Of a stretch of DNA of 64,000 nucleotides, positions 1,291-5,631 are shown piece by piece. The position numbers were made by a program, and so were the translations under genes. Source of the stretch: Halomicrobium zhouii (GTDB lineage Archaea; Halobacteriota; Halobacteria; Halobacteriales; Haloarculaceae); NCBI RefSeq assembly GCF_900114435.1, contig NZ_FOZK01000001.1:1459854-1523853 (forward strand), in the 5' to 3' direction. Positions within the stretch are counted from its first letter, which is position 1. Each line of letters opens with the position of its first letter. The notes beneath the pieces were generated by a model, which saw nothing but the letters and a program-made list of their open reading frames with translations, searched no databases and was not told the DNA's origin.

Positions 1291-1300
1291 TTGTTATAAT
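1291..1300 (-). promoter_or_regulatory. TATA box for the Q-rich secreted protein gene
   Basis: Read on the minus strand the sequence is ATTATAACAA, about 55 bases upstream of the ATG at 1238. A start site roughly 25 bases downstream would leave a leader of about 30 nt. The same TATAACAAA string sits upstream of the neighbouring FG-GAP/Q-rich gene, in both cases 17-18 bases from a GTAACG-NN-CGTTAC palindrome. Confidence 0.6.
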
Positions 1301-1314
1301 CAGTAATTCGATCT

Positions 1315-1328
1315 GTAACGACCGTTAC
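1315..1328. promoter_or_regulatory. Palindromic operator-like site 1, GTAACG-AC-CGTTAC
   Basis: Six-base half-sites GTAACG and CGTTAC are perfectly inverted around two bases. It lies 17 bases upstream of the TATA box of the Q-rich gene, where archaeal activators usually bind. A second copy lies 22 bp away (two helical turns), on the same face of the DNA. The binding protein is unknown. Confidence 0.6.
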
Positions 1329-1336
1329 CGCCAGCA

Positions 1337-1350
1337 GTAACGGCCGTTAC
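1337..1350. promoter_or_regulatory. Palindromic operator-like site 2, GTAACGGCCGTTAC
   Basis: A fully palindromic 14-mer with the same half-sites as site 1, whose centre is 22 bp away. The matching site upstream of the FG-GAP/Q-rich gene at 5618-5631 suggests a common regulator. Confidence 0.6.
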
Positions 1351-1456
1351 GGGAAAACATGAAACCTTACTAACTTTTTCTGGCGCGCTTCGCCTGGATA
1401 TCCCTCTGCTAACGCTCGCTGACGAACCAATTCAGAGCAACATCGCAGTTCCGCGT

Positions 1457-4400
1457 TCAGGCCGTCCCACCAGTCCCAGTCGTCTCCGTACCCGGTGCGG
1501 TCGATGCTGCCGTCGACGTCTCGGCCGGTCTGACGGACGTCGGTGGCGTCGTCACCGGATATGCAGTTCCGTCTGGCGCGTCGGTCCGCGTGAGTGAGGG
1601 CGTCGAGAGCGCCGAGCCGACGGGCGTGGCCGGCGGCGTGACTGTCGCGGACGGCGTGTCTGTAGCCGGGACCGTTCCCGCAGGTGTCGACGTGTTCCAC
1701 GGAGTCAGCGTCTCCGTGGGGGTCACGACTGCCGTCGGTGTCTCTGGGGGAGACGGTAACGGCGTCTGCGTCGTCGTCGACGTCTCTGCCGCCGTCGGCG
1801 TGTCGGTCGCAGTCGATGTCTCTGCCGCCGTCGGCGTGTCGGTCGCAGTCGACGTCTCTGCCGCCGTCGGCGTGTCGGTCGGTAGCGGCGTCTCCGTCGA
1901 CGTGTCGCGCTCTGACGACGTCTGCTCGCTGGTCGCGGCTGGCGTCTGCTCGGGAGTCGTGCCCGGTAGCGGCGTCGAAGCGACTCCATCTGTCGCGGCA
2001 GGTGTCCTCGTCGTCCGTTCGTCCGACGGTGTCGGTGCCGACGCGGGAGTCGAGTCCGACGGCACCGTCGTTTCGGTCGCCTCGACGGCCGAATCTGTCG
2101 CTGGCGGGGGCGACGTCGTCTCGGCTTCCGACCCGTTCGTCACCGTCTCCGTGCCAGTCGCGGCGACGGACTCGGTCGAGTTGTTCGACCGTGGACCCGG
2201 TTCGCCCTCCGGCGATGCGGTAGCCGGGGTGTTCGACGGTCCATCGGTCGCTTCGTCCGTCGACTCGACCGTCGAGTTGTCTATCGACGCGTTCGTCGTA
2301 TTGTCCATCGACGCGTTCGTCGCGCTCGCCGCCGAACCGTCCTCGATGTCGCTCGCGGTCTGGTTCTGGCTCTGGTTCCGGTCCGCGGTGATCGACTGTT
2401 CCTGGCGCTGGGTCCCCGTCCCCGACTGGTTCTGGGTCTGATTCTGGGCGCCGTCGAAGGTCGCGTTCTGCGTCTCCTCACCGCTCCCATCCGTGTAGTT
2501 CTGGGACTGCTGGATTCCAGATTCGACCGACTGGTTCTGGCTTTGCGTCTGGTTTCCCGTCTGGTTCTGGGTCTGATTCGCCCCGCCGGACTGGTTCCCC
2601 GCCTGGGCGGCGACGACCGACTGGTTCTGGCGCTGGGTCTGGGTGACCAGGGAACTGTTCTGTGACTGGTTCTGATCCTGGTCGACCGCTACCGTCTGGT
2701 TCTGCGCTTGCGCTCCGTCGGAGTCGTTCTGACCCTGTCGCTGGCCCTGGGCGACCGCGACGCTCCCGTTCTGTGACTGGTTCGTCGCGTTGGTGGTCTG
2801 GACCTGGGCCTGTCGCTGGGTGCTGTTCACCGACTGTCGCTGTGACTGTCCCTGCTGGTGGCTGCGGACCTGTTCCTGGCCCGCGTAGACCACCGAGACG
2901 TGCTGGACCTGCGTCTGGCGCTGGTCGACGCCCGCGTCCTGACCCTGGTCCTGGTCCTGGTCGACGTGGACGGTCTGTTCCTGGGACTGGCTCGCGCCGT
3001 CCGCACTGGCGGGGGCCTCCTGGTCCTGGCTCAGGAACGTGACGGTGAACTGCTGGATCTGGCGCTGGGACTGCCCGTCGCTCTCCTGGTCCTGCGACTG
3101 GGACTGCGACTGGTTCGTCCGGCCAGACGAGCGTTGGGTCTGGATCCAGTCTCCGCCCTCGCCCTGGCGCTGGCTGGCGAAGCGAATGACGAGGGACTGG
3201 CGCTGGTACTGGTCGTTGCTAGACCCCGTTCCCTGGTACTGACACTGGCTCTGGTCGACGTAGATGTCCTGCGACTGGTACCACTCGGCGCCGTCGCCGT
3301 CCTGGTGCTGGTCGACGGTGACTCCCTGTTCCTGGTGCTGGTCCTGCTGACCGTCACCGGTCTGGGTCTGGCACTGGTTCTGGGTGACGTAGATTCCCTG
3401 TCGCTGGGACTGACTCGACTGCTCCCCCGCGTCGGGCGTCGACTCACTCTCGTCGTCGGTCCCGCTCCCGGGCGATTCAGTCGAATCCTCGTCGTCCTCG
3501 GGCGACTTCGACAGATCCTCGTCGTCGCCCGGGTCTTCGTCGCCGGCCCCGGTCTCGTCGTCACCATCGCGTTGTTCGTCGCCACTGCCGTCGTCGCCTT
3601 CCTCGGTGCCGGCATCGCGAGGTGTAGCGTCCCCGTCGTCGACGTTCCGGTCGGTCCCGCCATCGTCCGCGACTTCGGTGGCTCCGTCGGTCTCCTCGTC
3701 TGTCCTTTCGTCACTACCGTCGTCGCTACCACCGTCGTCGGTTCCAGTGGGGGTGTCCGCGCTGTCGTCACCGTCGGCGTCTTCGCCGTCTTCGCCGTCG
3801 TCGCCGTCGTCGCCGTCGGCGTCGTCCCGGTCGTCCCCGCCAGTATCGCCCGTGGCGCCGTCCTCGCCGGCCTCGTCCCCGCCGACACGCTCCGTCTCGG
3901 TGTCTACGTCGTTCGGCCGCTCGGACGGCTCCGTTCCGGCGGGTCCGTCGTCGTCTCCGGTCGACTGGTCGGCCTCGCACGCGCCCGAGACGAGGTACGC
4001 CGAACCGCCCTGGGAGTCGTTCCCCGTGGCCGGCGCGCCGATCAGGACGCCGTCGGCGTCGGTTCCGTCGGCGGTACCGGCGGTCGAGACGTCGTACCCG
4101 GCCTCTCCACCCGGGGAATCCCCGGCGAGTTTCGCTGCCCGGAACTCGTCGCTGTCGGACCCACCGTAGAGGAGGTAGGCCGCGCCAGTGGTCGCACCGC
4201 CGGCGTCGTGGTACGGCGCTCCCACGACGACGTCGGCCCGTTCGTCACAGTCGAGGTCGCCGGCGCCGGCGACCGACCAGCCGGTGTGGTCGCCGGCCGC
4301 TTCGCCGTACACCGATATGGCGGCTCGTTCGACCGTGACCGCCCCCCGGAGATCTTCGCCCCCGGCGACGACGTAGGCGGCCCCGGCGTCGTCACCGGCG

Positions 4401-5560
4401 CTGTCGTTGAACGGCGCCCCGATAGCGACGTCGCCGACGCCGTCGCCGTCGACGTCGCCGGCCCCGGCCACCGAGAACCCGGCGCGGTCGTCCGCCCCGG
4501 CACCGACGATCTTCCCGGTGGCAGAGTCGAGGTTCGTCGATTCCTCGGAGGGCATCTCGACGACGTACGTCGCACCCGCTCGCTCGTGCGCGTCCGCGTC
4601 GTGATCGGGGGCACCGATCAGCGCGTTCGTCCTCCCGTCACCGGTGACGTCGCCGCTCCAGTCGACGGCCCAGCCGGCTCTGTCGCCGTCGGCCTCACCG
4701 ACGAACGACCCGTCGGCCGTCTCCGCGGCGGTGCCACCGTCCGAATCGTGGAGCGTCGACGCCGAGAACGCGTACGCGGTCCCACGGTCGTCGTCCGTTC
4801 CCGGGGCACCGACCAGGACGCTGGCCCGGTCGTCGGAGCCGTTTCGCGCGGCCACGGCGTGGCCGAGCCGGTCGCCCGCCTCGTCGCCGACGACAGTCGT
4901 GTCGGCCGTCGAGAGCGCCCGCTCACCGGCGAGGGACTCGCCGCCGTGGACCACGTAGACCGCGCCGGCGTTCGCTCCGTTCCCGTCCGCGCCTGGTGCG
5001 CCGACGACCAGTTCGGAGACGCCGTCGCCGTCGACGTCACTGCTCGCCACGGCCGCGCCCGCCCGGTCGCCCGCCGCTTCGCCGTGAAGGACGAGGTCCG
5101 CGTCGGCCGCGGAGACGGTCGACGGGTCGACTGGCCCGAAGAACACGTACGCCGCTCCCGTCCCGTTGGCACCCGGCGCACCGATCACGACGTCACTCGT
5201 GCCGTCGCCGTTCACGTCACCGCTCGCGACCGATCTGCCGAACCCCGCGTCGCCCGCTTCGTCGTCGAACCGGGTCTGGTTCTCGCCGAGGTCGACGAGG
5301 CCGGTCGGTGGACCGTCACCGCTGGTGTCCGTCTCCGCCGACGCTGCGCCCACGTCGTCGCTGGCGGCGGACTGAACTGCTGGCCCGGCCACTCTCGACG
5401 TTTCGCCGGGCGCCCCGCCGTAGCCGCCGCCGACCGCGGCGGCGGTCCCAGCGGTGCCGAACACGACCACGACCGCCAGCAAGAAAGCGATCGTTTGCGC
5501 GCGCACCGCGGGAGAAAACCATCGATACCTGTCGCCGTCTGTGAGGTCTCCGGAGTCCAT
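1457..5560 (-). CDS. Giant secreted protein: seven-bladed FG-GAP propeller, Q-rich repeats, Thr/Ser/Pro tail
   Basis: 1367 residues. A hydrophobic segment at about 22-43 ending in small residues is a signal peptide or anchor. Residues about 98-545 hold seven FG-GAP units, each ending IGAP- or VGAP-like (for example GDVNGDGTSDVVIGAPG). Several carry DxDGDG-type Ca2+ loops, as in integrin-alpha propellers; the seven units fit one full propeller. About 550-700 is Asp/Gly/Glu-rich. About 713-1072 is dense in QxQ (QNQTQNQ, QSQSQSQ) alternating with V/I-rich strands such as GIYVTQNQ. About 1075-1367 is a Thr/Ser/Pro mucin-like tail with three perfect TDTPTAAETSTA-type units. I see no PGF-CTERM motif and no C-terminal membrane helix, so the mode of attachment is unclear. 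It probably works at the cell surface in adhesion or matrix formation (inference). It shares promoter architecture with the adjacent Q-rich gene. Confidence 0.85.
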   Translation of the reverse strand: MDSGDLTDGDRYRWFSPAVRAQTIAFLLAVVVVFGTAGTAAAVGGGYGGAPGETSRVAGPAVQSAASDDVGAASAETDTSGDGPPTGLVDLGENQTRFDDEAGDAGFGRSVASGDVNGDGTSDVVIGAPGANGTGAAYVFFGPVDPSTVSAADADLVLHGEAAGDRAGAAVASSDVDGDGVSELVVGAPGADGNGANAGAVYVVHGGESLAGERALSTADTTVVGDEAGDRLGHAVAARNGSDDRASVLVGAPGTDDDRGTAYAFSASTLHDSDGGTAAETADGSFVGEADGDRAGWAVDWSGDVTGDGRTNALIGAPDHDADAHERAGATYVVEMPSEESTNLDSATGKIVGAGADDRAGFSVAGAGDVDGDGVGDVAIGAPFNDSAGDDAGAAYVVAGGEDLRGAVTVERAAISVYGEAAGDHTGWSVAGAGDLDCDERADVVVGAPYHDAGGATTGAAYLLYGGSDSDEFRAAKLAGDSPGGEAGYDVSTAGTADGTDADGVLIGAPATGNDSQGGSAYLVSGACEADQSTGDDDGPAGTEPSERPNDVDTETERVGGDEAGEDGATGDTGGDDRDDADGDDGDDGEDGEDADGDDSADTPTGTDDGGSDDGSDERTDEETDGATEVADDGGTDRNVDDGDATPRDAGTEEGDDGSGDEQRDGDDETGAGDEDPGDDEDLSKSPEDDEDSTESPGSGTDDESESTPDAGEQSSQSQRQGIYVTQNQCQTQTGDGQQDQHQEQGVTVDQHQDGDGAEWYQSQDIYVDQSQCQYQGTGSSNDQYQRQSLVIRFASQRQGEGGDWIQTQRSSGRTNQSQSQSQDQESDGQSQRQIQQFTVTFLSQDQEAPASADGASQSQEQTVHVDQDQDQGQDAGVDQRQTQVQHVSVVYAGQEQVRSHQQGQSQRQSVNSTQRQAQVQTTNATNQSQNGSVAVAQGQRQGQNDSDGAQAQNQTVAVDQDQNQSQNSSLVTQTQRQNQSVVAAQAGNQSGGANQTQNQTGNQTQSQNQSVESGIQQSQNYTDGSGEETQNATFDGAQNQTQNQSGTGTQRQEQSITADRNQSQNQTASDIEDGSAASATNASMDNTTNASIDNSTVESTDEATDGPSNTPATASPEGEPGPRSNNSTESVAATGTETVTNGSEAETTSPPPATDSAVEATETTVPSDSTPASAPTPSDERTTRTPAATDGVASTPLPGTTPEQTPAATSEQTSSERDTSTETPLPTDTPTAAETSTATDTPTAAETSTATDTPTAAETSTTTQTPLPSPPETPTAVVTPTETLTPWNTSTPAGTVPATDTPSATVTPPATPVGSALSTPSLTRTDAPDGTAYPVTTPPTSVRPAETSTAASTAPGTETTGTGGTA
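1779..1886 (-). repeat. 36-bp tandem repeat, three units, in coding sequence
   Basis: Units begin at 1779, 1815 and 1851. The first two differ at one position and the third diverges only at its end. They encode TDTPTAAETSTA-like dodecapeptides in the mucin-like tail of the FG-GAP/Q-rich protein. Such in-frame repeats can change copy number by slippage or recombination. Confidence 0.85.
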
Positions 5561-5591
5561 CCTCTGGAAAGTTCGGAATACTGGGACCGGA

Positions 5592-5601
5592 TTTGTTATA
5601 C
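5592..5601 (-). promoter_or_regulatory. TATA box for the FG-GAP/Q-rich gene
   Basis: Minus-strand CGTATAACAAAT lies about 35-40 bases before the ATG at 5560. It matches the TATAACAAA string used by the neighbouring Q-rich gene. Confidence 0.6.
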
Positions 5602-5617
5602 GCAGATGATACTCGTC

Positions 5618-5631
5618 GTAACGCCCGTTAC
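5618..5631. promoter_or_regulatory. Palindromic operator-like site 3, GTAACG-CC-CGTTAC
   Basis: Same half-sites and two-base spacer as the two sites at 1315-1350. It sits 18 bases upstream of the TATA box, against 17 bases at the other promoter. A single copy is seen here. Confidence 0.6.

Follow-up and report, generated by a model that had tools for sequence, protein, structure and literature searches.

Two very large neighbouring genes of Halomicrobium zhouii, here called A and B, encode apparently secreted, glutamine-rich (Q-rich) proteins and carry the palindrome GTAACG-NN-CGTTAC in their promoters. The question raised by this locus is whether a single regulator controls both genes through the shared sequence. 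A sequence-only reading of the surrounding stretch of 64,000 nucleotides (hereafter the window) had predicted this, leaving open whether the regulator would activate or repress. If such a regulator does act here, it must further be asked how the site works and which protein binds it.

Layout of the two promoters

The genes, palindromes and promoter boxes are collected in Table 1. The three copies of the 14-mer are exact matches at the positions first reported for them and, again as reported, the window contains no others, even when up to two mismatches are allowed. Read along the minus strand, the promoter of gene A has the arrangement GTAACGGCCGTTAC - 8 bp - GTAACGGTCGTTAC - 16 bp - TATAACA and that of gene B the arrangement GTAACGGGCGTTAC - 17 bp - TATAACA. 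The 22-bp spacing originally given for the two gene A copies is correct. The distance of 17-18 bases to TATAACA, which had been attributed to each copy, is obtained when start positions are subtracted, the gap proper being 16 bp at gene A and 17 bp at gene B, and it applies to the proximal sites only: the distal gene A copy lies 38 bases from the box.

Table 1. Features of the gene A and gene B promoters and coding regions, in window coordinates
Feature	Position	Strand	Description
Gene A, N-terminal 412 codons	3..1238	-	Signal peptide, Q-rich repeats of the form GxxNxQxxxQ; continues beyond the window start
TATAACA	1292..1298	-	Likely TATA box of gene A
Proximal palindrome, gene A, GTAACGGTCGTTAC	1315..1328	-	16 bp upstream of TATA-like box
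Distal palindrome, gene A, GTAACGGCCGTTAC	1337..1350	-	Start 22 bp from that of the proximal copy (about two helical turns)
Gene B, 1367 aa	1457..5560	-	Signal peptide or anchor, repeats of FG-GAP type (beta-propeller), an acidic and a Q-rich stretch (the latter about 718-1070), T/S-rich C-terminus
TATAACA	5594..5600	-	Likely TATA box of gene B
Palindrome, gene B, GTAACGGGCGTTAC	5618..5631	-	17 bp upstream of TATA-like box

The heptamer TATAACA occurs just twice in the window, at these two promoters. The longer box NATAACAAA(G), at window positions 1292-1301 and 5591-5600, is rare in the window and strongly conserved at these promoters, and may perhaps do more than serve as an ordinary TATA box.

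Rarity of the palindrome

A genome-wide search had been proposed as a check on the significance of the palindrome. In the 4,250,330-base (4.25 Mb) genome the exact 14-mer does not recur at unrelated positions: it is found three times, in all three cases at the promoters of genes A and B, and the reversed control pattern has no exact match (zero mismatches) in the same genome. Sites with one mismatch number four elsewhere in the genome, every one of them within a called ORF. Since the window alone, at two mismatches, yields three sites against 2.2 expected and hence no excess, what carries significance is the exact matches, together with the whole-genome count and the relatives.

Among 144 genomes of the family, counted without the window's genome (G000) and its sister (G063), the exact 14-mer is present at 15 sites, or about 0.1 per genome. 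With the exception of one small group, these were rejected as further regulon members and are attributed to chance: of those whose flanks were examined, most fall within coding sequence and none adjoins a Q-rich gene. The members of the small group share common flanks (..GTAACG..CGTTACagtaatgttcttcagattatactt..) and lie close to radB/CBS genes and a gene for an HTH protein. It comprises two copies 2.9 kb apart in G101 (L028:7705 and L028:10627) and one in G113 (L030:1080), and is apparently a different repeated element, unconnected with the Q-rich genes.

Conservation of the site in relatives

Orthologues of gene A were found using gene A profiles, and the set includes a divergent congener, Halostella pelagica and two other genera. 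They are present in G064 (same genus, around 49% identity, different genomic place), G178 (Halostella pelagica, CP040678.1), G342, G382 and G398 (genus g58), and G237 and G266 (genus g38), with a variant form in G184. The sister genome G063, 'Halobacteria archaeon HArc-gm2', has an identical proximal palindrome at gene A, and its promoters are near-identical to those of G000 over long stretches.

A register-matched dyad is present in the A promoters of G178, G342, G382 and G398, and is weaker in those of G064, G237 and G266. Most orthologous promoters have 7-10 of the 10 arm bases, with 16-18 bp to the box, and the box NATAACAAAG occupies the same place in all orthologous main A promoters; this unusually well conserved box may carry further specificity. 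The A promoter of G064 reads GTAACTCCCGTTAC - 8 - GTAATGGCTAGTAA - 16 - GATAACA, with spacings equal to those of the window: its distal site retains all 10 arm bases and the 22-bp spacing, and its proximal site is weak (6/10). The sites in G237 and G266 are also weak, with 7/10 and 6/10 arm bases, respectively. In G178 there are three sites, 22 bp apart, and the g58 promoters too have three, at intervals of 20 and 31 bp, of which the final one lies 16 bp from GATAACAAAG.

At gene B, G178 has the register-matched site GTAACGCACGTTAC, and sites 16-17 bp from the box are found in G237 (GTAATCCGCGTTAC), G266 (GTAATTCCGGTTAC) and G184 (GTAATTTAGATTAC). The linkage of site and gene is not universal, since the dyad is absent from the gene B promoter of G064. 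The element also accompanies variant or paralogous Q-rich genes (A2) in G342 (L065:6915) and G266 (L101:7228), for which the boxes were taken from separate inspection, the automatic box finder having picked wrong ones. These comparisons refine the consensus to GTAAY-N4-RTTAC; outside close relatives, the inner CG of the originally described motif is not conserved.

The prominence of this dyad was assessed quantitatively by counting all 4-mer palindromes with gaps of 0-12 in the 170 bp upstream of 15 promoters, with G000 and G063 excluded and the three g58 A promoters merged, leaving 13. The commonest, GTAA-N6-TTAC, occurs in 8 of the 13, and the runners-up in 3. For comparison, in 500 dinucleotide shuffles any dyad was present in at most 4 promoters. 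A composite of site and box, GTAAYN4RTTAC-N15-19-WWAACAA, yields seven matches in 392 Halobacteriales genomes, all seven at a promoter of A or B. With the reversed composite, single matches are scattered over a few genomes. In a 12-genome set, likewise, matches are confined to A and B promoters. Conservation upstream of orthologues, the other check that had been proposed, is borne out: in further genera and families the dyad has kept its distance of 16-18 bp to the box. Together with the exclusivity of the 14-mer it supports the prediction of one putative regulator for both genes, which fits the data well.

DUF7344 as candidate regulator

The neighbouring gene at G000:C1:1456873-1457439 encodes a 188-aa protein whose match to DUF7344 (PF24035) scores 88.1 bits, the cut-off being 27.8. 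Seven genomes (G000, G063, G064, G178, G342, G382 and G398) have a DUF7344 gene downstream of gene A, in four separate genomic settings. This adjacency is, alone, suggestive only, because DUF7344 matches are numerous, from about 7 to 58 per genome in the 12 haloarchaeal genomes counted. In a phylogenetic tree, however, which came with long-branch warnings, the cluster copies and one type of copy from the f17 genomes form a single clade (support 97/88) among some 30 paralogues, with one extra long-branch row inside the clade. The tree was used in place of leave-one-lineage-out profiles, which failed to separate cluster copies cleanly from those of f17.

The structural model of DUF7344 contains a winged helix and two transmembrane (TM) helices (pLDDT 78). 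Its fold matches are winged-helix proteins, at modest E-values, and comparison by sequence with solved structures gave no match. In genera g1, g27 and g58, cluster-type DUF7344 is found in the seven genomes having gene A and in none of 12 tested that lack it, an absence judged in part with a profile built from cluster copies. The idea that the f17 copy also tracks gene A was rejected, as every f17 genome tested has it, unlinked, whether gene A is there or not; co-occurrence is therefore claimed for g1, g27 and g58 only. Autoregulation through the dyad was likewise rejected, DUF7344 having no dyad in its own promoter in any genome looked at. In the papers searched, nothing was found on DUF7344. 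We regard DUF7344 as the leading candidate for the factor at the site, albeit tentatively and at somewhat less than an even chance.

In G237, at L171:5611-7299, the unlinked DUF7344 gene adjoins one for an FG-GAP protein similar to the N-terminal half of the gene B product, an arrangement not seen in G266 or G184.

Comparison with known regulatory sites

CsmR of Haloferax volcanii, a soluble 13 kDa protein of the Lrp/AsnC family with about 65 ChIP peaks, has the motif TATCA-N4-TGATA, which adjoins BRE/TATA on the upstream side (PMC13286277). The site described here resembles it in having a 5-N4-5 layout upstream of BRE/TATA in a haloarchaeon, but the arms differ and two genes are involved rather than some 65 peaks.

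ArnR and ArnR1 of Sulfolobus acidocaldarius are membrane-bound one-component regulators having an HTH at the N-terminus and two TM helices at the C-terminus; the ArnR boxes are two inverted repeats, TCGAC-N5-GTCGA, at -43 to -84, upstream of BRE/TATA, and surface structures are controlled (PMC6396743). DUF7344 resembles ArnR in its predicted winged HTH and two TM helices, and in both cases inverted repeats lie upstream of BRE/TATA. Unlike the ArnR boxes, the sequence here is GTAAY-N4-RTTAC, and the phylum and targets differ. We did not class DUF7344 as ArnR-like: it has no HAMP or sensor domain of the ArnR type, nor room for one in 188 aa, and its DNA binding is putative.

Few sites of haloarchaeal transcription factors have been defined, and fewer are this exclusive, with two genes per genome and almost nothing else. 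That the site is a new and highly specific archaeal operator of an undescribed gene family is supported as far as sequence allows. As such it would join two unstudied secreted Q-rich proteins in one regulon, provide a marker for finding more regulon members, and offer a small, clean system for asking whether DUF7344 is a family of membrane-bound regulators.

Proposed mode of action and alternatives

Where an inverted repeat stands at a constant distance from the TATA-like box of two different genes, and is multiplied at intervals of whole helical turns at one of them, the anatomy is that of a dimeric factor's operator. We infer that a dimeric, sequence-specific transcription factor would bind GTAAY-N4-RTTAC and control a small regulon of genes A and B, from a position 16-18 bp upstream of the TATA-like box (T/A)ATAACAAAG, the centre falling at about -54 if transcription starts at the usual distance. 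BRE and TATA are left free in this way, which suggests that the site would act as an upstream activating element. Gene B has one site and gene A two or three, 20, 22 or 31 bp apart; as these spacings correspond to whole helical turns, several dimers could bind on one face. Membrane-anchored DUF7344 might then act as a one-component sensor, turning on a surface or matrix structure. Taken as a whole, with a dimeric site, a two-gene regulon, upstream activation and DUF7344 as the most likely factor, this reading is in our view highly probable.

The palindrome per se is silent on activation versus repression, and several helically phased sites would permit looping too, as expected if a bound repressor blocked or looped the promoter until a signal lifted it. 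Archaeal repressors, however, usually bind at the BRE, TATA box or start, and the proximal sites all end 16-18 bp upstream of the box, clear of all three. The ArnR boxes (PMC6396743) and the CsmR motif are similarly placed and are read as activating. With general knowledge and these two systems as a guide (PMC6396743, PMC13286277), a gap that leaves the BRE free suggests activation; the site is probably one for an activator upstream of BRE/TATA, and repression appears unlikely. As for the factor itself, the same operator might be bound by the product of an unlinked gene, for instance a protein of Lrp/AsnC type resembling CsmR, with DUF7344 doing another job in the cluster. We give this alternative an even chance. 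It accords with the unlinked f17 copies of DUF7344, present there without gene A, with the DUF7344 promoters that lack the dyad, and with the precedent of a haloarchaeal factor on a 5-N4-5 palindrome upstream of BRE/TATA (PMC13286277). Against it, the called gene lists showed no other conserved regulator gene next to the cluster, and the cluster DUF7344 copies, at four separate genomic places, belong to one clade.

Two further explanations were weighed. Were the promoters simply copied from one another, or the related genomes too young to have diverged, similarity would mean little, and the nearly identical promoters of G000 and G063 indeed prove little as a pair. Yet the A and B promoters are unlike each other outside site and box, and genera and families whose proteins are only 44-64% identical, and whose flanks have changed, still carry the dyad. 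Barring artefact, chance and recent duplication are refuted by the 392-genome composite search and the dyad count with its shuffles, and we consider them very improbable. The perfect inverted repeat would also suit a role outside transcription, in modification or restriction, in recombination or as an RNA hairpin. This we judge very improbable: the palindrome keeps one distance and orientation relative to the promoter box, lies outside the expected transcript and occurs nowhere else in the genome, which sets it apart from restriction or modification motifs, and no mobile element was seen adjoining it within the window.

The Q-rich proteins and their gene neighbourhood

At full length, in the sister genome G063, the gene A protein has 1097 aa; it matches no Pfam family. 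Its orthologues show a 47-residue period of GxxNxQxxxQ units, with 20-28 units per full-length protein. The gene A model is strand-rich and of low confidence (pLDDT 58, pTM 0.53), and a fold search with it gave nothing usable; the repeats are predicted to be beta-rich. The gene B protein contains four stretches matching FG-GAP (PF01839; E 2e-26, 91.8 bits), over the Pfam cut-off. A fibre or matrix role is a guess, and in the papers searched nothing was found on Q-rich haloarchaeal proteins or on haloarchaeal amyloids.

Curli (CsgA/CsgB, with the regulator CsgD) are secreted Q/N/G-rich repeat proteins under specific regulation. By analogy, genes A and B may be compared to them as encoding secreted Q-rich repeat proteins, apparently under specific regulation. 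The gene A proteins were, nonetheless, rejected as curlin repeat proteins: measured against the minimal curlin repeat X6QXGX2NX10 (PMC3521004), they contain QxGxxN only 0-2 times each and have no Pfam curlin match. No curli secretion genes were noticed in the called gene lists. Conceivably, although we find it rather doubtful, B, A and DUF7344 could make up a so far undescribed system of extracellular fibres or matrix in haloarchaea, built of beta-structured Q-rich repeat proteins and having its own membrane-anchored one-component regulator for the GTAAY-N4-RTTAC sites, a functional counterpart of curli and their regulator with an independent origin.

The gene order B-A-DUF7344 is kept in G000, G063, G064 and G178. 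To the left of the window region in the genome lie a ribosomal protein operon and SecY. Gene A of G064 (L041:8900-10366) has two in-frame TAG codons where relatives have Q, followed by a frameshift, so that the gene is either decaying or misassembled in its repeats. In genus g38 (L068, L069 and L100; G237, G266 and G184) the Q-rich cluster is without DUF7344 and has instead two other genes, encoding a conserved protein of 476-505 aa ending ..SEGKVYATQNFC and a secreted protein of 253-267 aa. In genus g58, an extra secreted protein of about 400-430 aa is encoded between gene A and DUF7344 (L064:11401-12684, L066:11472-12719 and L067:11328-12566), and a possible paralogue of it lies beside the second Q-rich gene of G342 (L065:4462-5673).
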